A program made the position numbers and the translations under genes. Of a DNA stretch of 8,091 nt, positions 1-8,091 are shown piece after piece. Source of the stretch: Smithellaceae bacterium. Its GTDB lineage: Bacteria > Desulfobacterota > Syntrophia > Syntrophales > JAQULV01. The notes beneath the pieces were generated by a model that was given only the letters and a program-made list of their open reading frames with translations, was not told where the DNA came from and ran no database searches. The DNA is taken from positions 1 through 8,091 of the forward strand of contig JAQULV010000041.1 of assembly GCA_028718405.1 (NCBI GenBank), in the 5' to 3' direction. How positions within the stretch are numbered: position 1 is the stretch's first letter; every line of letters begins with the position of its first letter.

Positions 1-312
1 GGCAAGGTGAGGCTCATATACGGGTCCCGGGGAAATGAAGATCCTGTCGACGGGAGCAGCCGAGTCGGCGAAACCTCCGTAGGGCGGCTCTTCCATTTCC
101 AGAGCAATCAATTGCTCGCGGGAGATAACGGGAAAGCGCGACAGGTCATCAAGGCTGTTGATGTCATCGAGGGATATACCCTTCTCCTGGCACATCCTTC
201 GGACCCTCTCCGCCTTGGCGTATCCTGCAGCGAGCATCGCTTTGAACCTGCGGAAATTTTCCTCTCTCCGCAGCGCTGGCGAAAGGATTTCTCTCTCGTC
301 GAATGCAGCCAT
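1..312 (-). CDS. PaaK-like phenylacetate-CoA ligase family protein, N-terminal part
   Basis: The open frame starts at an ATG (312-310) and runs off the left edge, giving the first 104 residues. The helical start (residues 1-45, rich in Arg/Glu/Lys), then SLDDLSRFPVISREQL (about 53-68) and DRIFISPGPVYEP (about 89-101), match the N-terminal layout of phenylacetate-CoA ligase (PaaK, ANL superfamily), where a 'DL..LPF..K..L' segment precedes the ATP phosphate-binding loop. Members activate aryl acids with ATP and CoA in the cytoplasm. Where PaaK has an SSGTTGKP-type loop, this protein reads ISPGPVYEP, so it appears to belong to a divergent branch. It follows livF with a strong AAGGAGG (323-317) that overlaps the livF stop, so it is the next operon gene. 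The substrate cannot be told, and the C-terminal two thirds, including later adenylation motifs, lie outside the window. Confidence 0.75.
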   Translation of the reverse strand, partial: MAAFDEREILSPALRREENFRRFKAMLAAGYAKAERVRRMCQEKGISLDDINSLDDLSRFPVISREQLIALEMEEPPYGGFADSAAPVDRIFISPGPVYEPHLA

Positions 313-316
313 GTTT

Positions 317-323
317 CCTCCTT
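317..323 (-). promoter_or_regulatory. Shine-Dalgarno of the PaaK-like gene, overlapping the livF stop
   Basis: Minus-strand AAGGAGG lies 4 nt before the ATG at 312. Its first two bases are the last two bases of the livF TAA stop (324-322). A ribosome terminating on livF therefore sits on the initiation signal of the next gene, which argues for coupled translation and fixes the ATG at 312 as the start. Confidence 0.8.
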
Positions 324-1125
324 AGAGCCATCTCTTGCGGCGCCGGTAGGATTTTACATCACGATACGATCGCAGGTCTCCGGCTACGCCCACCCCTAAA
401 TAGAATTCCTTGATGTCCGGATTTTTGACCAGATCTGCGGCAGAACCTTCCATAACAATTTTGCCGTTTTCCATGACGTATCCGTAGTGCGCTATCTGGA
501 GCGCCATGCCGGCGTTCTGCTCCACGAGGATGATCGTCGTCGCCTGTTCCTCGTTAATCTTCACGATGATCTCGAATATCTCTTTTACGACCAGCGGGGC
601 CAGACCTAGAGATGGCTCATCCAAGAGGAGCAGTTCGGGATGTGCCATGAGCGCCCTCCCCATAACGATCATCTGCAGCTCCCCGCCACTGCAGTAGCCG
701 GCCAAGGCCTTCCTTCTTTTCACCAGCGCAGGAAAGTAATGGTAGACCATCTCGAGATCGTCCTTATGAGGCTTAAGCCAGCGCGTCGCCGTTCCGACTT
801 TCAGGTTTTCCTCGACGGTTAGGTATTTGAAAGGCTGCCTTCCCTCCAATACATGTATGATCCCCTGGCGCGTAATGAACTCCGGGTATTGATTCTGGAT
901 GTTTCTGCCCTTGTAGATAATGCTACCATCGGTCACCTTGCCATTTTCTGGTTTCAACAGACCTGATACGGCTTTGAGAGTCGTGGTCTTGCCCGCACCG
1001 TTGCTTCCCAGAAGCGATACGATGTGATTCTTCTCTACCGCCAGCGATACGCCTTTTAATACCTGTATGACATCGGAGTAGACAACGGAGATATTGTTGA
1101 TTTGAAGCAGGATGTTATTCTCCAC
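322..1125 (-). CDS. livF: LivF-type ABC transporter ATP-binding protein
   Basis: Cytoplasmic ATPase subunit of a LIV/HAAT importer, 267 residues against roughly 235 for typical LivF. Visible motifs are Walker A GSNGAGKT (40-47), a Q-loop region HVLEGR (91-96; the LivF norm is close to VPEGR), signature CSGGEL (145-150), Walker B LLLLDEP (165-171), D-loop LGLAP (173-177) and the LivF-typical switch sequence VEQN (201-204), with Gln where most ABC ATPases have His. VEQN and the LEGR region separate it from LivG. The extra length is mainly a C-terminal tail from about residue 247, ending in a strongly basic RRRKRWL. The start is GTG (1125-1123), 12 nt after livM, preceded by GGGGG (1135-1131) at 5-nt spacing. 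It should pair with LivG under LivH/LivM. Confidence 0.95.
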   Translation of the reverse strand: MENNILLQINNISVVYSDVIQVLKGVSLAVEKNHIVSLLGSNGAGKTTTLKAVSGLLKPENGKVTDGSIIYKGRNIQNQYPEFITRQGIIHVLEGRQPFKYLTVEENLKVGTATRWLKPHKDDLEMVYHYFPALVKRRKALAGYCSGGELQMIVMGRALMAHPELLLLDEPSLGLAPLVVKEIFEIIVKINEEQATTIILVEQNAGMALQIAHYGYVMENGKIVMEGSAADLVKNPDIKEFYLGVGVAGDLRSYRDVKSYRRRKRWL

Positions 1126-1137
1126 CGTTTCCCCCGA

Positions 1138-2220
1138 TCAGTACGAAAAAGGCCAGAGGCGGAAACTGGAACGGACGATACGCCAGATCTCCGCCAGGCC
1201 CCGCGGTTCGAAGAGGATAAAGACGACAATTGCCAACCCGAAGACAAATTCCCGGAGCGGGGCAAGGTTCAGATTAAAGCCGCTGGTAGCGAATGCCCCA
1301 CTGTTCATGAGGTAGTCGGTAAGCCACCTCAGCACCTCGGTAAGTGCAGTGATGAAGACGGCACCATAGATGGACCCCGCTATGTTTCCCAATCCTCCAA
1401 TTATTACCATCGCGATGTACTCGACGGAAAGCGTGAGATTGAAGGGTTCTGCAGTCACGCTGATCATGTAGAAGGCCCAAATCGCTCCCGCAAATCCGGC
1501 ATAGAATGAGCTTATCCCAAAGGACAGGAGTTTATAGCGGAAGATCGGAATTCCCATTCCCTCTGCAGCCCGATCGTTGTCACGGATGGCGATGAAAGCG
1601 CGACCAAATTTGGTCCGCACCAGATTTATCGCGATCCAGGTCATGAGACACAGTGCGATGAAGATGACGAAGAAAAAGCTCTTGTCTCCGCTTATCGGAA
1701 AGCCTACGATGTCAGCGGTAGGCAGTGTTATGCCCATCGTACCTTTGGTCAGGCTCTCCCAGTGGATGAGGATGTATTCAATAATGAACTGCCCGGCAAG
1801 CGTGGCAATGGTAAGATAGAGCCCTTTCAGTCGTCCCGAGGGAATCCCAAAGATCATGCCAACCAGAGCGGTAATGATACCCGCAGCGGGAACGGCGAGA
1901 AGAAAAGGGGCATTTACCGTCGTGGCGAGGATCGCTGCCGCGTAAGCACCGACGCCGAAAAAGGCGCCGTGTCCCAGCGAGATCTGCCCTGTATAGCCGA
2001 TCAGGATGTTGAGTCCGATCGCGGCAATCGCGGCAATGCCGATCATGTTGATTACGTAGAGGAGATAGGGACTTACTACGTACGGTACGACGGCAAAGAG
2101 GATGATCAACCCCACCAAAGCCCAGAACCTGCCGAAATCCGACTCGAAGATGGTAAGTTCATCGTCGTACCGTTCTTTATAATTTCCGCAAGGGTGGAAT
2201 CTCAGAGTTCTCTTTTTCAT
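1138..2220 (-). CDS. livM: LivM-type ABC transporter permease
   Basis: Inner-membrane permease of a LIV/HAAT importer, 360 residues. After a hydrophilic N-terminal stretch of about 30 residues come about nine hydrophobic segments (roughly 31-50, 53-74, 84-102, 105-127, 134-152, 181-202, 231-255, 266-298, 320-337). Family landmarks are GYTGQISLGHGAFFGVGAY (75-93), the cytoplasmic ATPase-coupling loop GRAFIAIRDNDRAAEGMGI (206-224), IIGGLGNIAGSIYGA (273-287) and the C-terminal FEPRGLAEIW (337-346). The ATG shares ATGA with the livH stop (4-nt overlap), and AAGGAGA (2237-2231) lies upstream inside livH, so the two permeases should be translated in equal amounts. The soluble N-terminal extension (residues 1-30, with PCGNYKERYDDELTIF) is longer than in many LivM proteins. 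The partner is LivH. Confidence 0.95.
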   Translation of the reverse strand: MKKRTLRFHPCGNYKERYDDELTIFESDFGRFWALVGLIILFAVVPYVVSPYLLYVINMIGIAAIAAIGLNILIGYTGQISLGHGAFFGVGAYAAAILATTVNAPFLLAVPAAGIITALVGMIFGIPSGRLKGLYLTIATLAGQFIIEYILIHWESLTKGTMGITLPTADIVGFPISGDKSFFFVIFIALCLMTWIAINLVRTKFGRAFIAIRDNDRAAEGMGIPIFRYKLLSFGISSFYAGFAGAIWAFYMISVTAEPFNLTLSVEYIAMVIIGGLGNIAGSIYGAVFITALTEVLRWLTDYLMNSGAFATSGFNLNLAPLREFVFGLAIVVFILFEPRGLAEIWRIVRSSFRLWPFSY

Positions 2221-3095
2221 ACCCTTTCGATCTCCTTAAGCCCGAACAGTCCGTACGGTTTCACGAGGAGAATGAACACGAGGACGATGTAGGGTACGAC
2301 GTCGCGGAGCGATGGCGATAGATAACCTCCGGTGAAGGTCTCCAGCAGGCCGATTATAATCCCGCCGATAATGGCCCCGCCGATGCTGTCCAGTCCTCCC
2401 AGGATCACGACCGGGAATACCTTTAGTCCAATAGCTGACAGGTCATGTACGTTGATCCCGTTGATGATACCGAGGACAATCCCGCTCATACCTGCGACGA
2501 GTGCGGCAATGGCCCATGAGAGGGCAAAAACGAGCTTAACGTGTACACCCAGGGACAGGGCCGCTTTCTGGTTGTCAGCTACGGAACGCATATAAATTCC
2601 CTGAGAGGAGTATTTGAAGAATAAACCGAATACCGCGAGAAAGGTGAGCCCGATAATGAGCGTCGCCGTATAGACGGGAGGGATATTGATCATTCCCCTC
2701 TGTATTCCCAAAAAGCTCGGGAGAAAATCCGGATAAGTGTTCAGGTTGCCACCGAAGATCAGAAGAAGGATACCCTTGAACATCGAGGCCAGTCCTACGG
2801 TGAGCATAATAACGAAGATCAGCGGTTCCCCGATCAGTGGGCGGAGAAAAAGTCTCTCCACGACAAACCCCAGGACAAAGCAGCCCGCCAAGGTAATGAG
2901 GAAGGCGGGCAAAATGGGCAGTTGCGCCCAAGTAACGAGGGCCAGGAAGAGGAAGGCACCCATGGCCAGCAACTCGCCGTGGGCAAAGTTCAGAACACTC
3001 GATGATTTAAAGATCATCACAAAGCCCATGGCGGACAGGCCATAGAGGAAGCCCACGCTGATGCCGTTTATGAGAAGTTGTACGAAGAAATCCAT
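2217..3095 (-). CDS. livH: LivH-type ABC transporter permease
   Basis: Second inner-membrane permease of the LIV/HAAT importer, 292 residues, the usual LivH length. It opens with the classic LINGISVGFLYGLSAMGFVMIF (about 8-29) and SSSVLNFAHGELLAMGAF (31-48). The ATPase-coupling loop is MRSVADNQKAALSLGV (169-184). Late landmarks are LKVFPVVILGGLDSIGGAIIGG (224-245) and VKPYGLFG (278-285). About eight hydrophobic segments are visible. The ATG (3095-3093) follows the acyl-CoA ligase stop by 9 nt. The only ribosome site is TAAGG (3107-3103), built from that stop codon plus two bases, 7 nt before the ATG, so translation is probably coupled to the ligase. Its end overlaps the livM start. Confidence 0.95.
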   Translation of the reverse strand: MDFFVQLLINGISVGFLYGLSAMGFVMIFKSSSVLNFAHGELLAMGAFLFLALVTWAQLPILPAFLITLAGCFVLGFVVERLFLRPLIGEPLIFVIMLTVGLASMFKGILLLIFGGNLNTYPDFLPSFLGIQRGMINIPPVYTATLIIGLTFLAVFGLFFKYSSQGIYMRSVADNQKAALSLGVHVKLVFALSWAIAALVAGMSGIVLGIINGINVHDLSAIGLKVFPVVILGGLDSIGGAIIGGIIIGLLETFTGGYLSPSLRDVVPYIVLVFILLVKPYGLFGLKEIERV

Positions 3096-3104
3096 AACCT
3101 AGCC

Positions 3105-5048
3105 TTAGGATACCGCTATAACGTTAACCCGCGTTTCTATCTGCCCAACTTGACCGTCACGGTAACGTACCTTTCCCTTGACATCGACCTGCGCGATGTT
3201 GTTGTACATGGCTTCGATAAGTTTCAGATACAAACCATATACGAAACGACGCCGGATCTTTCCTGTGCGTGTGAGCTCTTCATCGTCGGCATCGAGGAGT
3301 TTGTAAAGAAGTATAAACTTGCGAATCTTCATAATGTCAGGCAGCTGCCCATTCACCTGGCTCACTTCCTCCAGTATCAGTTTTTCCACCTCCGACCTCT
3401 GCGTGAGGTCAGTGTAAGTAGTGTAGGGAATCATTCTCTCCTCCGCCCAGCTGCCGACATTTCCGAAATCGATGTTGATCATGGCGGAGATAAAGGGTCT
3501 CCCTTCTCCGAAGATAACGGCTTCCTTGATGTAGGGGCTGAACTTCAATCTTGTCTCGATGAAATCCGGCGAAAAGGCTTCTCCGCTCTTGTTCCTGATT
3601 ATCTCTTCCTTACGTCCGATGATGAGCAGATGTCCGTCGCGATCGAAATATCCCGCGTCGCCAGTTCGCAACCAGCCGTCGCTGAAGGCATTTTCCGTAG
3701 CCCCGAAATCATTATAATAGCCGCTGAAATTGGCCGGGCTCTTTACCAGCACCTCCTGGTCTTCCGCAAGTCTCACCTCGGTGCTCAGCAAGGGTTTTCC
3801 TACGGTCTCGAGCTTCACCTGGTCGTCGGGCTGAACCTGGAATATACCGCAGGATTCCGTGAGGCCATAGCACTGCTTGAGATTAAGCCCGATGGCGCGA
3901 AAAAAACGAATGACGTCCGGGCTGATTGGGTGACCTCCTGTATAGGCGCCCCTCAGTTGCGCACAACCGATCCGGTCCAGCAGAGGCCTGTAAACGGTCG
4001 CTCTCGCCAGAGGATACACGCCGCGCGAGATAAGTGGAATTTTCTCTCCCCTTCCCTGAGCATCGACGACCGTTCTTCCCAATTTTACGCCGGCCTCGAA
4101 CAGGCGTCTCTTCAGCCATCCGGCGTCGGATATCTTCACCCTAATTTTCGAGGCCAGATCTTCCCAAAAGCGTGATGAGGTAATGATCATGGCGGGGCCG
4201 ATTTCGCGGAAATCTTCCACGACCGTTTCCGCCGTTTCCGGGAAATTCATTGTCATTGCCGACACGAGGGCAACGCCCACGCCCCACATCTGATCGACAA
4301 TCCACGCGGGCGGTGACATAGATAGCCAATTTTCCCCCGGCGTAATTTCCATTCCTTCGGTCCAGTTCCGGCCCATCTGAGCAAAGCTCCGGTGCGAGAG
4401 CATCGCAAGCTTAGGAAGACCTGTCGTCCCCGAGGTGAGGATCATCACGGCCGTATCATCGGGTTTACCTTTGGCAAGTTCCGACTCGTAGAGTCCAGGA
4501 TTACTCTCATCCGTCTCCTCTCCCAGCTTGAGAAAATCTTGGTAGCTCATCAGCCACGGATCGTGACGATAGTTTCTCATTCCCGTCGGATCGACATAGA
4601 TAACGCGACGGACATGACCTAGAGAAGGGCGTGCATCGAGCATCTTGTCGACCTGTTCTTGGTCCTGAACGACAACGAAACTCGCCTCGATGCGATTGAG
4701 CGCTGATTTCAACTCTTCGGTCACCGCTGACGTGAAGAGATTGAGACTTACGCCTCCTAGGCACTGAACTCCTAACTCGGAGAAAAGCCACTCCGGGTGA
4801 TTGTTCATGATGATGGCGATCCGCTCTCCACGGTTGAATCCCAGGCCGGCGAATCCCAGGGCCGCCTTTTTTACGTACCGCTCGTAATCGTTCCAGCTAT
4901 AGGCCTGCCATATGCCGTAAGCTTTCTCGCGAAGCGCGGTCGTCCCATCACCGAAACGTCCGGCTTGCTTCGCCAGGATCTGCGGCAAGGTATATTCTGC
5001 AAGCGAAGAGACCATACCTGCTTTTTCTTCTCCTGCTGTACTACTCAC
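3105..5048 (-). CDS. AMP-forming acyl-CoA ligase (FAA1-like) inside the transporter operon
   Basis: A 647-residue adenylate-forming enzyme of the ANL superfamily, close to long-chain acyl-CoA synthetases (COG1022 type). It should convert a carboxylic acid, ATP and CoA to acyl-CoA, AMP and PPi. Motifs in order are P-loop TSGTTGLPK (205-213), AYTGGHPIS (368-376), YGLTES (394-399), the hinge region GWLRTGDAGYFDRDG (458-472), IIGRKEEIIRNKSGEAFSP (476-494) and a C-terminal ELTRTGKIRR (591-600), whose K597 is the candidate catalytic lysine. All key elements are present, so it looks active. There is no signal peptide or membrane segment; it is probably cytoplasmic. It sits between livG and livH, suggesting the imported substrate is trapped as its CoA ester. 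The substrate (fatty, aryl or aryl-alkanoic acid) cannot be read from the sequence. The start is GTG, chosen on a strong Shine-Dalgarno; an in-frame ATG at codon 12 is the alternative. Confidence 0.93.
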   Translation of the reverse strand: MSSTAGEEKAGMVSSLAEYTLPQILAKQAGRFGDGTTALREKAYGIWQAYSWNDYERYVKKAALGFAGLGFNRGERIAIIMNNHPEWLFSELGVQCLGGVSLNLFTSAVTEELKSALNRIEASFVVVQDQEQVDKMLDARPSLGHVRRVIYVDPTGMRNYRHDPWLMSYQDFLKLGEETDESNPGLYESELAKGKPDDTAVMILTSGTTGLPKLAMLSHRSFAQMGRNWTEGMEITPGENWLSMSPPAWIVDQMWGVGVALVSAMTMNFPETAETVVEDFREIGPAMIITSSRFWEDLASKIRVKISDAGWLKRRLFEAGVKLGRTVVDAQGRGEKIPLISRGVYPLARATVYRPLLDRIGCAQLRGAYTGGHPISPDVIRFFRAIGLNLKQCYGLTESCGIFQVQPDDQVKLETVGKPLLSTEVRLAEDQEVLVKSPANFSGYYNDFGATENAFSDGWLRTGDAGYFDRDGHLLIIGRKEEIIRNKSGEAFSPDFIETRLKFSPYIKEAVIFGEGRPFISAMINIDFGNVGSWAEERMIPYTTYTDLTQRSEVEKLILEEVSQVNGQLPDIMKIRKFILLYKLLDADDEELTRTGKIRRRFVYGLYLKLIEAMYNNIAQVDVKGKVRYRDGQVGQIETRVNVIAVS

Positions 5049-5059
5049 GGGCTACTGCA

Positions 5060-5066
5060 CCTCCTT
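5060..5066 (-). promoter_or_regulatory. Shine-Dalgarno that decides the GTG start of the acyl-CoA ligase
   Basis: Minus-strand AAGGAGG, continuing to GGAGGTG, precedes the GTG at 5048 by 11 nt (9 nt if the trailing TG also pairs). The in-frame ATG 33 nt further in (5015-5013) has only a weak GGAGA at poor distance, so GTG is preferred. The site lies in the 54-nt gap after livG (5102-5049), the widest gap in the operon. The gap shows no terminator or convincing promoter. Confidence 0.7.
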
Positions 5067-5102
5067 GCTGATACATCCGATGCCCACGCCTCGACAAAAA
5101 TT

Positions 5103-5930
5103 TTAGTACAGGGAAACGTTGTCCCCCAAATACGCCCTAATTACCTCGGGATGATTCCTTATCTCCTCCGCGGTGCCTTCGGCTAATTTCTCCCCGAAGT
5201 TCAGAACGACAATGCGCTGCGCGATGCTCATCACGATGGACATGTCGTGCTCGACAAGGATCATTGTCTGCCCCCACGCTTCGTTGAGCTCGACCAGAAA
5301 GCGCACCATGTCCTCTTTCTCTTCCAGATTCATCCCGGCAAAGGGTTCGTCGAGAACCAGCAGCTTCGGTTCCAGTGCCAGTGCCCTGCCCAGTTCTACC
5401 CTTTTCATCATACCATAGGGAAGCGAGCCTACCGTTTTGTTGCGGATGGATTGCATCTCCAAGAAATCGATCAATTCCTCGAGGATTCTTCTATGTCTGA
5501 TCTCTTCGTGACGTACACCGCGCGAAAACAATCCGGCCGCAGGCAGATGATATTTGCAGTGGATATGCCGCGCGAGCATCATATTCGAGAGGACCGACAT
5601 TCCGGGAAAGAGTTCGATATTCTGAAAGGTCCGACCGATACCGACCCTGATCAACTCGTGAGTGGGCATGGCTGCGATATCCTGGCCGTTAAAGAGAATC
5701 CGGCCCTTCTGGGCCCGATAAAATCCCGTGATACAGTTGAGGAGGCTCGTCTTTCCCGCCCCGTTCGGTCCGATCACGGCCAATAGTTCGCCGCTATGAA
5801 CCTCGATGTTGACTGCACTTAAGGCCTTGACGCCGCCGAAATGGAGACTGAGATCACTTATTGTCAGTTCGGCGGCCCCTTGCGGGACCGCCGTTCCGTA
5901 GATGCTCGGTTTACCGCGGAATGCCTTCAT
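5103..5930 (-). CDS. livG: LivG-type ABC transporter ATP-binding protein
   Basis: Cytoplasmic ATPase subunit of the LIV/HAAT importer, 275 residues. The ABC domain begins near residue 21 (ELTISDLSLHFGG). Motifs are Walker A GPNGAGKT (54-61), Q-loop GRTFQN (99-104, Q103), a signature region SLPYGMMKR (169-177), Walker B LLVLDEP (190-196), D-loop FAGMN (197-201) and H-loop LVEHD (225-229, H228). RTFQNIELFPGMSVLSN and the C-terminal PEVIRAYLG are LivG hallmarks. The signature LPYGMM replaces the ideal LSxGQ: Pro for Ser occurs in LivG relatives as far as I recall, Met for Gln is less usual. The ATG overlaps the last base of the preceding TAA (TAATG). The AAGAGG before it sits only 2 nt from the ATG, so initiation probably depends on coupling. 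The first 20 residues are an unremarkable extension. Confidence 0.95.
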   Translation of the reverse strand: MKAFRGKPSIYGTAVPQGAAELTISDLSLHFGGVKALSAVNIEVHSGELLAVIGPNGAGKTSLLNCITGFYRAQKGRILFNGQDIAAMPTHELIRVGIGRTFQNIELFPGMSVLSNMMLARHIHCKYHLPAAGLFSRGVRHEEIRHRRILEELIDFLEMQSIRNKTVGSLPYGMMKRVELGRALALEPKLLVLDEPFAGMNLEEKEDMVRFLVELNEAWGQTMILVEHDMSIVMSIAQRIVVLNFGEKLAEGTAEEIRNHPEVIRAYLGDNVSLY

Positions 5931-7135
5931 TACCTCTTGATCCTGATCTTCTCCTTACCGGGGGTATAGAAATTCGTGAGTGGAACAAAATCCCCATTCT
6001 CCGTGACCTTTACAATTCTTGCCTTGAAAGACGCACCATGGTCGGTCTTTGTATAAGTCACCTTCGGGATAATTCCGCCGAAATCCTCGCCTTTGAAGGA
6101 TTCCATTGCCTTGTTGATCGTATTGGCATTGATCGTCCGATATTTCTCATTGGCGCGGATGAAAGCTCGTTCCATAATCATGGCAACGGATACACCCTCC
6201 CAGTAAGAGGCGTCAAATTTATTCACGGTCTTGTATCTCTTCCAGAGCTCGTTCATTACCTTCATACCCGGAGTCTTGTCAGAAGGCAGACCGCCGGGGA
6301 ATTGGATACAGAGACGACCATCGATGACGCCCTTCCCCAGCTTGAAAAAGTCGGGATCAGTCGATGTCCACGTTCCTAGGAAAACAGGCTTGTAGTTGAT
6401 GCGATCGGCACTCTTAAAGGCCGTTATGATCGTCGCCGGCAGCATCTGCATGAAGACGTATTGGGCGCCGCTTTTTTGAAGTCGCAGCAATTCCGTAGTT
6501 AGGTCAACCGTCTTCGGGGGAAATTCCTCGATCGAAACGATTTGGATGCCGTTCTTCGCGGCGTAGTCCTTGCTGGGCTGATGGATGGAACGTCCATAGG
6601 CGTTATTGTACGTCAGAAGACCAACTTTCGGGGCTCCGTTGCCTTTGTGAATGGCTTTGATGTATTCCAGAACAGCGAAGCAATCCATCTTATAACTGCC
6701 GAAGGGCAGATACATATAGTCTACAGGCGGCTCCAGCAGCTCCCAACTAGTGGAGAAATTGATCGCCGGGATCTTGTACTCCTGAATGATCGGCTTGGCC
6801 GCCAGCCCCTCCCCGGCGCCCCAGGTGGCGATCATATCGACCTTGTCCTGAACGGCAAACTTCTTGACGGCGGCAACCGCCTCGGGAACTTTGTAGGCGG
6901 TATCCACCAAGAGAAGCTCCACCTTGCGACCTGCTACCCCCTTCTTTACATCGTTGACGTACTTGAAGTAGTCCTGCATGCCTTTGGCGTGGAACTGACC
7001 CCAGGTCGATGCCGGTCCCGTCATGTTTATCGCTGCTCCGACCTTGATGCTCTCAGCGGCCGTGACCGGAACTGTGATGAGTCCAACGAGTGCCAGCATG
7101 GCCAGGCAAATCACCAAACAACGAATCGATTTCAT
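5930..7135 (-). CDS. Periplasmic substrate-binding protein of a LIV-type ABC importer (LivJ/LivK-like)
   Basis: A 401-residue type I periplasmic binding protein (Peripla_BP_6 / HAAT family) that captures the ligand and delivers it to LivH/LivM. It has a Sec signal peptide: basic K2/R5, a hydrophobic core of about residues 6-22, and a likely cut after VTA (24-26) or TAA (25-27). No lipobox Cys sits near the cut, so it should be soluble rather than a lipoprotein. Family landmarks are IKVGAAINMTGPASTWG (30-46), a ligand-pocket segment WGAGEG (104-109), and PKVGLLTYNNAYGR (about 168-181). LIV-type binding proteins bind branched-chain amino acids, aromatic acids, amides or other small carboxylates; the ligase neighbours favour a carboxylic acid. 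It is the first large gene of the operon. The ATG at 7135 has stacked GGAGG sites (GGAGG at 7144-7140 and AGGAGG at 7149-7144). Confidence 0.95.
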   Translation of the reverse strand: MKSIRCLVICLAMLALVGLITVPVTAAESIKVGAAINMTGPASTWGQFHAKGMQDYFKYVNDVKKGVAGRKVELLLVDTAYKVPEAVAAVKKFAVQDKVDMIATWGAGEGLAAKPIIQEYKIPAINFSTSWELLEPPVDYMYLPFGSYKMDCFAVLEYIKAIHKGNGAPKVGLLTYNNAYGRSIHQPSKDYAAKNGIQIVSIEEFPPKTVDLTTELLRLQKSGAQYVFMQMLPATIITAFKSADRINYKPVFLGTWTSTDPDFFKLGKGVIDGRLCIQFPGGLPSDKTPGMKVMNELWKRYKTVNKFDASYWEGVSVAMIMERAFIRANEKYRTINANTINKAMESFKGEDFGGIIPKVTYTKTDHGASFKARIVKVTENGDFVPLTNFYTPGKEKIRIKR

Positions 7136-7161
7136 TGCGCCTCCCTCCTCTTTTAGAGATC

Positions 7162-7191
7162 AAAAAAATGCTGTGAGATAGTCCCACAGCA
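7162..7191 (-). terminator. Second intrinsic terminator (T2), just upstream of the binding-protein gene
   Basis: On the minus strand TGCTGTG (7191-7185) pairs with CACAGCA (7175-7169), a 7-bp stem. Inside it are one mismatch and two more pairs around a 3-nt loop. It is followed directly by seven T (7168-7162). There is no T-run on the other strand, so it acts only leftward. It ends 26 nt before the ATG at 7135, with the ribosome site between, leaving no room for a separate promoter. Transcripts of the operon must pass it. It is weaker than T1. Confidence 0.75.
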
Positions 7192-7194
7192 CAT

Positions 7195-7233
7195 AAAAAA
7201 AGCCGTGGGCAGTTTCGAGGTCTGCCCACGGCT
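7195..7233 (-). terminator. Strong intrinsic terminator (T1), candidate attenuator
   Basis: On the minus strand AGCCGTGGGCAG (7233-7222) pairs perfectly with CTGCCCACGGCT (7212-7201), a GC-rich 12-bp stem with a 9-nt loop. A run of seven T (7201-7195) starts at the stem's last base. This is a textbook rho-independent terminator for leftward transcription; rightward there is no T-run. It lies 153 nt beyond the stop codon of the upstream regulator and 60 nt before the operon's first large gene. Either it simply ends the regulator transcript, or it is a conditional attenuator. The promoter and alternative pairing upstream favour the second reading. Confidence 0.92.
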
Positions 7234-7273
7234 CACACATCCTGATCAGATCATGAGCATGGCAGGCAGACCC
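7218..7273 (-). promoter_or_regulatory. Candidate antiterminator pairing competing with T1
   Basis: Minus-strand GGGTCTGCCTGC (7273-7262) can pair with GTGGGCAGACCT (7229-7218): 12 consecutive pairs, nine Watson-Crick and three G-U. The core of eight Watson-Crick pairs is GGTCTGCC with GGCAGACC. The downstream strand takes up 8 of the 12 bases of T1's 5' arm, so this helix and T1 cannot coexist. The upstream strand lies right after the Phe codons of the leader ORF and can alternatively close on itself (GCAGG 7276-7272 with CCTGC 7266-7262, 5-nt loop). That local hairpin would play the part of the 1:2 protector hairpin in amino-acid attenuators. Pairings were found by eye; energies were not computed. 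Confidence 0.6.
7231..7258 (-). repeat. Imperfect hairpin across the leader ORF stop
   Basis: Minus-strand GCTCATGATCT (7258-7248) pairs with GGATGTGTGAGC (7242-7231) around a 5-nt loop GATCA. This gives eleven pairs with three G-U and one bulged G. It contains the leader ORF stop codon (7253-7251) and overlaps the first three bases of T1's 5' arm, so it would compete slightly with full T1 closure. It may be a pause or spacer hairpin; its role is unknown. Confidence 0.45.
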
Positions 7274-7319
7274 TGCTAAAGAAGCAAAAAAAGTTAAACA
7301 CTATCCCGCCCAAGTACAT
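7251..7319 (-). CDS. Putative Phe-rich leader peptide (22 aa)
   Basis: A short ORF starting ATG at 7319 and ending TGA at 7253-7251. Residues 6-15 read IVFNFFCFFS: five Phe codons within seven (residues 8-14), plus three Cys in the peptide. The preceding TAGGTGGAAGG offers a ribosome site: AGGTGG at 7332-7327, 7 nt from the ATG. The ATG would lie about 25 nt from the predicted transcription start, close to the spacing in known attenuator leaders. The style resembles the enteric pheA and pheST leader peptides, with clustered Phe codons just before a terminator/antiterminator region. The ORF end is placed so that a ribosome at the stop would cover the antiterminator strand. Caution: a T-rich tract gives Phe codons by chance, so the call rests on the combination of features. 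Confidence 0.6.
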   Translation of the reverse strand: MYLGGIVFNFFCFFSRVCLPCS

Positions 7320-7350
7320 CAGCCTTCCACCTATGATCTTTTGGTGACGT

Positions 7351-7379
7351 TTTATAACGGCAAAATGCGCATTAGTCAA
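7351..7379 (-). promoter_or_regulatory. Sigma-70-type promoter of the operon
   Basis: Minus-strand TTGACT (7379-7374, five of six to TTGACA) is followed after exactly 17 bp by TATAAA (7356-7351, five of six to TATAAT). Transcription would start near 7344. It begins 8 nt after the stop codon of the sigma-54 activator gene and upstream of the leader ORF and both terminators, as an attenuated operon would require. No second promoter is visible between T2 and the binding-protein start. Confidence 0.7.
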
Positions 7380-7386
7380 GCAAATA

Positions 7387-8091
7387 TCATCCATCCAGGC
7401 CCAGTTTCTCTATCCGGTACCGGAGCGAATCGAACGTTACACGAAGAAGCTCCGCCGCTTTGGTCTTGGAGCCGCCTGTCTTTCTGAGCGCATTCTCGAT
7501 GATCTTGCGTTCTACCTTCGCCATCTCTTCATTTAGATTTATCCCCCTGTCAGGTATTTCGCCTGAAGCCGCACGTTCCTCATTCTCGAACCGTCCGGCA
7601 AGGAAAAGGTTCTCCGGCAGAATTATGTTCGATGTCTCCAGGGCGATGCTCCGCTCGATGATGTTTTCCAACTCCCGCACGTTTCCGGGGAATTCATAAT
7701 CCATCAGTAGTTCCATGGCATAGGTTGAAATGGTCATGACCTCTTTGGAGAATTCGCGACTATATTTTTCGATAAAGAAATTTGTTAGTAAGGGGATATC
7801 CTCTCTTCTTTCCCGCAGGGGCGGCATCCTGATCGGAATTACATTAAGACGGTAGTAGAGATCTTCCCGGAAGCCTCCTTCCGCGACCTTTTTCTCCAGA
7901 ACCTGGTTTGTGGCGGAGATGATGCGCGTATCGACCTTCAAGTCATCGGCGCCGCCGATGCGGCGGAAGGTCTTTTCCTGAACCACCCGCAACAGCTTTA
8001 CCTGCAATACCGAGGGGAGCTCTGCTATCTCGTCGAGAAAGATCGTTCCTCCTTTGGCAACCTCGAACAGGCCTGGCTTGTCGACGTAAGC
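7387..8091 (-). CDS. Sigma-54-dependent transcriptional activator (NtrC/PilR type), C-terminal part
   Basis: The frame is open through the right edge and ends at TGA (7389-7387), giving the last 234 residues. The fragment begins just after the expected GAFTGA loop: VDKPGLFEVAKGG (3-15), Walker B TIFLDEI (16-22), sensor I RIISATN (56-62), the arginine region FREDLYYRLNV (74-84), PPLRERREDIPLL (about 91-103) and sensor II FPGNVRELENII (134-145). The final 50 residues form a Fis-type helix-turn-helix (GGSKTKAAELLRVTFDSLRYRIEKLGL, split around 206-232). The family is an enhancer-binding ATPase that remodels RNA polymerase-sigma-54. The ending TFDSLRYRIEKLGL recalls PilR-like response regulators, but the N-terminal sensing domain is outside the window. 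Its signal and targets are unknown. It precedes the importer operon in the same direction, but T1/T2 and a separate promoter suggest a separate unit. Confidence 0.95.
   Translation of the reverse strand, partial: AYVDKPGLFEVAKGGTIFLDEIAELPSVLQVKLLRVVQEKTFRRIGGADDLKVDTRIISATNQVLEKKVAEGGFREDLYYRLNVIPIRMPPLRERREDIPLLTNFFIEKYSREFSKEVMTISTYAMELLMDYEFPGNVRELENIIERSIALETSNIILPENLFLAGRFENEERAASGEIPDRGINLNEEMAKVERKIIENALRKTGGSKTKAAELLRVTFDSLRYRIEKLGLDG

Follow-up and report, generated by a model that had tools for sequence, protein, structure and literature searches.

The pheA and pheST operons of enterobacteria are governed by ribosome-mediated attenuators with a Phe-rich leader peptide, and in the trp attenuator of E. 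coli the position of the ribosome decides between two overlapping hairpins. The locus described here lies in an 8,091-nt stretch of DNA from a Smithellaceae bacterium (GCA_028718405.1, contig JAQULV010000041.1, positions 1–8,091; the window) and resembles pheA and pheST in its Phe-rich leader, in an antiterminator and a terminator that have one strand in common, and in a stop codon placed for ribosome cover. We predict, with a probability of roughly 0.88, that this Phe-codon leader and its mutually exclusive hairpins switch an importer/CoA-ligase operon on when charged tRNA-Phe is scarce. The mechanism itself is of a known kind, ribosome-mediated attenuation.

When Phe is scarce, a ribosome would stall on the Phe codons of the leader, leaving strand 2 free; strand 2 would pair with strand 3 on its emergence, and RNA polymerase would pass terminator T1 and transcribe the operon. 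When Phe is plentiful, a ribosome at the stop codon would cover strand 2, and T1 would form.

The features of the window are collected in Table 1, where all leader and operon coordinates refer to the minus strand. An earlier note on the window had described a promoter, a 5′ UTR of about 25 nt and a ribosome site, followed by a 22-codon ORF with five Phe codons in seven, and all of these are found: TTGACT and TATAAA place the transcript start near 7344 and give a 5′ UTR of ~25 nt, AGGTGGAAGG precedes the leader ATG, and 7319–7251 reads MYLGGIVFNFFCFFSRVCLPCS and a stop, with Phe codons starting at 7298, 7292, 7289, 7283 and 7280. The promoter is missing from the list made by the promoter scan because the scan requires a T at position 6 of the −10 box. 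Among 107 leaders examined with a promoter script, 77 reach a score of at least 9, versus 18 for shuffles. Directly upstream of the leader lies the gene for a sigma-54-type regulator, whose stop codon falls just before the promoter.

Table 1. Leader elements and operon genes of the window.
Feature	Coordinates	Strand	Basis
Sigma-70-type promoter: TTGACT 7379–7374, 17-nt spacer, TATAAA 7356–7351	7351..7379	-	Sequence reading; script 10/12
Shine-Dalgarno-like AGGTGGAAGG, 5′ of leader ATG	7323..7332	-	Sequence reading
Leader peptide ORF, 22 codons, MYLGGIVFNFFCFFSRVCLPCS and stop	7251..7319	-	Sequence and ortholog comparison
Phe codon cluster, 5 Phe in 7 codons	7278..7298	-	Codon and frame statistics
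Strand 2, GGGTCTGCCTGC, 5′ side of main antiterminator helix	7262..7273	-	Alignment, covariation
Second antiterminator helix, 5′ side GCTCAT, up to first base of stop codon	7253..7258	-	Covariation
Second antiterminator helix, 3′ side GTGAGC	7231..7236	-	Covariation
Strand 3, common to antiterminator and T1 5′ arm	7218..7234	-	Covariation
Terminator T1, GAGCCGTGGGCAG / CTGCCCACGGCTT, then T run	7195..7234	-	Script, covariation, folding
Terminator T2, hairpin 7192–7168, then T run	7161..7192	-	Terminator scan, ortholog comparison
Substrate-binding protein, LIV-type importer	5930..7135	-	PF13458 match
ATPase, LivG type	5103..5930	-	Family-model matches
AMP-forming acyl/aryl-CoA ligase	3105..5048	-	Family-model matches
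Permease, LivH type	2217..3095	-	Family-model matches
Permease, LivM type	1138..2220	-	Family-model matches
ATPase, LivF type	322..1125	-	Family-model matches
PaaK-like ligase, gene start, truncated at contig end	1..312	-	TIGR02155, E 1.8e-06, far below cut-off

The main antiterminator helix pairs 7272–7262 with 7229–7219 and adds one G-U pair (7273:7218), and the T1 stem pairs 7234–7222 with 7212–7200 and is followed by a T run; the 12-bp antiterminator and the terminator of the earlier note are thereby both recovered. Two features go beyond that note: the antiterminator continues into a second helix at the stop codon, and T1 is followed by a further terminator, T2. The 5′ arm of T2 is complementary to the 3′ arm of T1. 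Alignment, covariation and folding agree that antiterminator and terminator exclude one another through their common strand 3. In folding predictions for the window, the antiterminator reaches −32.7 kcal/mol with strand 3 just made, and T1 reaches −25.7 kcal/mol. The earlier note had proposed folding the leader with constrained ribosome positions; with the RNA free only 3′ of the stop codon, T1 and T2 are predicted to form. The predicted fold of the untranslated RNA depends on its end-point, being T1 at one and the antiterminator at another. Over its 196 nt the leader has a folding z of −5.1, and none of 200 shuffles is equally stable.

Orthologs of the binding protein occur in 118 of the 155 genomes of the class, all within one order, and in 12 named records besides. 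We compared 117 loci, from 111 of the 118 class genomes and six named records outside the class; seven genomes with gene fragments lacking a start (G092, G114, G117, G123, G148, G159, G161) were left out, and two identical upstream regions (L059, L068) were dropped. Upstream sequence is just 79 nt in L097, and L075 and L125 end at contig ends. Six loci without a script-detected T1 near the anchor (L043, L052, L081, L086, L091, L126) were retained by hand, and each of them has a covariance-model match at the site.

The RNA element is kept in 113 of the 117 upstream regions, namely the 112 of the main count and L090, where the leader sits further upstream (re-read as L166); of the other four, three are without it and L097 is too short. 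A Phe-rich leader is present in 112 of the 113 element-bearing loci, 110 of them in the antiterminator-set frame and two (L092, L093) with the Phe-rich ORF outside that usual frame. The earlier note had proposed asking whether Phe codons and RNA structure co-vary among orthologs: the Phe leader and the RNA element occur together in 112 of the 117 loci, both are missing in three, and two are cut by contig ends. In the three (L012, L014, L144) neither a Phe-rich ORF nor T1 is present, and the anchor is degenerate at best. The note had named retention of the terminator with loss of the ORF as speaking against its reading; this pattern was seen at none of the 117 loci, although the Phe run of L092 and L093 lies in another frame.

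Within 17 codons, 109 of 112 leaders hold 3–8 Phe codons in the frame that strand 2 sets; the other three are L092 and L093, with their out-of-frame Phe run, and L075, which ends at a contig end. This frame has the highest number of TTY codons in 104 of the 112 leaders, ties in six and has fewer in two (L092, L093), with a mean per leader of 5.9 versus 2.8 and 3.2 in the others. This concentration of TTY codons among the orthologs settles the reality of the Phe leader. An in-frame start codon is available as ATG in 102 leaders, GTG in three and TTG in two. The anchor of strand 2, GGTCTGCC, is exact in 98 of 116 loci. Counted 3′-ward from the start of strand 2, the end of the stop codon lies at 22 nt in 97 of 112 leaders, at 13 nt in nine and at 1 nt in six, and the last Phe codon starts 6–15 nt 5′ of the strand 2 GTC; judged by this geometry, the stop codon is positioned for a finishing ribosome to cover the antiterminator strand. 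T1 was detected by script in 106 of 116 loci, and T1 together with T2 in 54 of 116.

We examined pairing and covariation in an alignment (A1) of 50 non-redundant leaders drawn from 104 segments. For the antiterminator, 87.5% of cells are paired, versus 33–43% with the partners slid, and 7 of 17 pairs show changes in both partners; five of these seven lie in the second helix, where 5 of 6 pairs have such changes. For T1, 93.8% of cells are paired, versus 34–55% slid, and such two-sided changes are seen in 6 of 13 pairs. When columns were shuffled, the observed numbers of paired cells and of double-changed cells and the covariation score were reached by 0 of 500 shuffles; the number of double-changed pairs was reached by 20 of 500 (antiterminator) and 34 of 500 (T1), and the number of pair types by 41 of 500 and 198 of 500, respectively. 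Pairing and covariation in A1 suggest that both mutually exclusive folds are maintained.

Across the phylum, a 395-genome sample contains the ortholog in 51 genomes: 12 in the order, nine in family f52 and 30 elsewhere. The leader is present in all nine f52 genomes (one of them G429). Four loci of this family (L009, L010, L013, L015) and two that resemble them (L007, L008) have a stop codon that abuts strand 2, and in five of the six the script places the ATG 9–11 nt behind the −10 box, which implies a very short 5′ UTR or a near-leaderless start. In L007–L010 base pairing is possible between the Phe run and a downstream A/G-rich stretch, a possible 1:2 sequestering helix recognised by eye. 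One of the 30 orthologs outside the order and f52 is a fragment; in the 29 examined, neither the anchor nor, over the 330 nt next to the gene, any terminator was found, and the RNA element is absent from them. The covariance model, run on 10 of the 29, found no match. The element is not essential to the operon, being absent from these 29 and from L012, L014 and L144. Seven of the 29 genes are preceded by a short ORF with four or five Phe in eight residues; we did not count these ORFs as leaders, as none has the anchor and those that are repetitive (MNFFTCFLFLDV and the like) resemble a promoter region.

The covariance model built from A1 matches in 139 of the 155 genomes of the class and in 129 of the 395 sampled phylum genomes, 16 of which belong to the same order. 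Besides importer leaders, its matches precede genes of the shikimate pathway. A family model identifies the gene behind L165 as DAHP synthase, and the window's own genome has a leader of the same RNA chassis, with YFNFNGFWGYYYF, before a DAHP synthase-like gene (L188, G000:C336). Of 24 phylum sites that were read, 18 precede shikimate-type genes and six are unclear or cut (L197, L200, L201, L202 twice, L203); going by resemblance, we take the 18 genes to be ADTH-type aldolase (eight), DAHP synthase (six), shikimate kinase (three) and aminotransferase (one). Two terminators occur in 21 of 24 shikimate leaders examined. In two cases, L191 (G332:C399) and L202 (G178:C66), attenuator matches are paired in series ~170–190 nt apart, both of those in L191 preceding an ADTH-type aldolase-like gene. 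Two genomes whose importer loci are without the element have model matches elsewhere: that of L012 (G131) retains a shikimate-type leader (L168), and that of L144 (G130) has a match at a matching distance from its PDT gene.

The codons carried by this chassis differ with the genes downstream. Counted over an identical 17 codons in an identical fixed frame, the 112 importer leaders hold 642 Phe, 69 Tyr and no Trp codons, and 25 shikimate leaders (20 among the matches listed and five others) hold 73 Phe, 92 Tyr and 24 Trp codons, with Trp in 20 leaders. When ORFs of the same 25 shikimate leaders (again 20 among the matches listed) were chosen by aromatic content instead, the counts were 73 Phe, 99 Tyr and 30 Trp, with Trp in 21; the aromatic run of L168 and L216 lies outside the fixed frame. 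That one RNA carries different codons depending on the genes downstream would be difficult to account for if the codons were not read, and the distribution of codons by gene function fits sensing, by each leader, of its codons' own tRNA. Together with the co-occurrence in 112 of 117 loci and the covariation, this codon content, which is the strongest evidence of all, supports the attenuation reading that the earlier note had drawn from the window.

What the operon does is less certain. We tentatively consider, at somewhat under even odds, that it imports and CoA-activates an aryl acid, with phenylacetate as first candidate, as a precursor of Phe. Phenylacetate can be converted to phenylacetyl-CoA, then by an IorAB-type enzyme to phenylpyruvate, and by transamination to Phe. 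We infer the link of the operon to phenyl acids solely from which genes share the Phe control. In four genomes (L159–L162) a lone gene for an AMP-forming ligase of ~516 aa stands behind a Phe-rich leader, T1 and T2; the Phe-rich frame of L160 is shifted and has no stop codon before the ligase. Behind a further Phe leader (L163, G030:C15) come a short coding stretch and then genes for a sodium/solute symporter and an AMP-forming ligase; this genome gave no match to the LIV binding protein in the ortholog search of the class genomes. That importers of two unrelated kinds, both accompanied by a ligase, share a single Phe control suggests that the acid taken up is used for Phe synthesis. Against an aryl acid stand the L159 ligase, which passes the model of a subfamily called long-chain-fatty-acid CoA ligase, and the ligase of the operon itself, which scores under every cut-off of the families listed for it. 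IOR-alpha scores above cut-off in 11 of 13 importer-bearing genomes versus 2 of 14 controls, and weaker matches occur in all 13 and in 12 of the 14 controls; in the window's own genome the best IOR match is under the cut-off. IorAB was not seen inside the operon, and IorA lies ~20 kb off on the same contig in two genomes. A missing pheA was ruled out as a motive for salvage, prephenate dehydratase being present in 130 of the 155 genomes, the window's own included; salvage of Phe would consequently not be obligatory and would only supplement synthesis.

The importer might instead take up Phe or aromatic amino acids, with the ligases serving another purpose and attenuation acting as simple feedback. 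The transporter is of LIV type, LivG/H/M/F are among the top NCBIfam matches of its genes, and Phe would be the residue sensed; solved structures were uninformative about the ligand. We nevertheless think uptake of amino acids rather unlikely, since the LivG and LivH genes flank an AMP-forming ligase gene, both in the window and in seven relatives (L028, L032, L033, L034, L037, L038, L041; those whose ORF calls show the three genes together), and since the lone ligases and the symporter/ligase pair stand behind Phe leaders of the same chassis.

A catabolic operon, for degradation of Phe or of aryl acids, whose attenuator merely saves expression when Phe is rich, seems to us improbable. PaaK belongs to aryl-acid breakdown, and PaaK-like genes lie 3′ of the importer genes in L033 and L037, as does the PaaK-like gene start in the window; shut-off by plentiful Phe, however, is the wrong sign for Phe breakdown, and the chassis otherwise precedes biosynthesis genes.

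Two further alternatives concern the RNA rather than the genes. T1 and T2 could be constitutive insulators against the regulator gene that directly precedes the leader in the window, with a further operon promoter downstream, and a tandem terminator in 54 of 116 loci would suit such a role; this is very improbable, as there is a promoter in front of the leader, no terminator was found over the 330 nt searched in the 29 distant orthologs, and a conserved antiterminator with compensatory changes would be purposeless. Scarcely credible is a T-rich RNA or protein-binding element in which the Phe codons are incidental: the T runs are homopolymer-like and TTT outnumbers TTC in the importer leaders (542 vs 120), but TTY peaks in the antiterminator frame in 104 of 112 leaders, the run is broken in frame by non-Phe codons, for example AGC and GGC, and shikimate leaders hold Tyr, Trp and Phe codons at the same place.

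Under attenuation by the Phe leader, T2 raises a question, as it should stop the polymerase even once T1 has been passed. We numbered the T1 3′ arm strand 4 and the 5′ and 3′ arms of T2 strands 5 and 6. Over 54 loci the 4:5 duplex has a mean of −11.5 kcal/mol, versus −6.9 kcal/mol with strand 5 shuffled; permuting 4:5 partners gave P = 0.018 with a statistic that ignores kinship. The core hexamer of T1 is found again in the T2 5′ arm in 27 of the 54. Strict coupling of T1 and T2 was rejected, since the 3:6 duplex (mean −11.6 kcal/mol) equals 4:5, which is better in 18 loci and worse in 34, and since 5:6 is better than 4:5 in 44 of the 54. In the window, the 4:5 duplex has −15.0 kcal/mol and 3:6 has −8.7 kcal/mol; ahead of the synthesis of strand 6, the freed T1 3′ arm can pair with the T2 5′ arm at −14.6 kcal/mol. 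With strand 6 transcribed, T2 becomes the more stable fold (−19.0 vs −14.6 kcal/mol), so that a domino of this kind could only be kinetic. Taken as a class, the 21 shikimate leaders examined for it have a T2 that follows T1, with −11.7 kcal/mol for the leader's own strand 5, −11.8 for that of other shikimate leaders and −10.5 for importer strand 5; exceptions by sequence are many (among them L158, L165, L168, L208, L209, L211–L214 and L217). That the freed 3′ arm of T1 pairs with the 5′ arm of T2 where T2 is present, so that escape from T1 also disarms T2, strikes us as doubtful. In the joint picture, a phylum-wide chassis unknown to Rfam would be retargeted by swapping leader codons, with Phe, Tyr and Trp for shikimate operons and Phe for aryl-acid uptake; it would govern a Phe-starvation regulon that takes up phenylacetate-like acids and rebuilds Phe from them, and a domino would let a single ribosome decision disable both terminators. 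This picture is unlikely to hold in all its parts.

If the Phe-attenuation reading is true, expression of the operon would track phenylalanine supply, which points to salvage of aryl acids into Phe, a pathway hard to recognise from genomes alone. The leader would also open a functional route to a family of transporters and ligases from anaerobic bacteria that is poorly understood. It would further offer a natural experiment, with different amino acids sensed by one RNA chassis via its leader codons, and a case of tandem terminators that may be switched together.

Rfam release 15 gave no match in the window at the curated thresholds, among leader families, T-box and riboswitches included; at a relaxed threshold the best match was an unrelated sRNA (E 0.28). 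No description of the leader element was found in the accessible text of the literature searched, which included PMC2965389 and PMC1262725. Older comparative work on proteobacterial attenuation (e.g. Vitreschak 2004, as cited in PMC1262725) may cover part of the shikimate leaders. As far as the literature and Rfam searches show, three things are new: the importer/CoA-ligase target, a chassis that spans the phylum and whose codons can be exchanged, and the tandem terminators.

The leader departs from those of pheA and pheST in preceding an importer and CoA-ligase operon, in having no Rfam match, and in its conserved GGTCTGCC chassis with a second antiterminator helix at the stop codon and often a second terminator. 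As in the trp attenuator of E. coli, the position of the ribosome would choose the hairpin; here another residue would be sensed, and a 1:2 sequestering helix is discernible by eye only, in some f52-type leaders. Also close are the Phe/Tyr/Trp leaders that stand before shikimate operons of this phylum and have the same RNA chassis and, in 21 of 24, two terminators; they differ in carrying mixed aromatic codons, whereas the importer leaders carry Phe without Trp, and in preceding DAHP synthase, ADTH-type aldolase or shikimate kinase.
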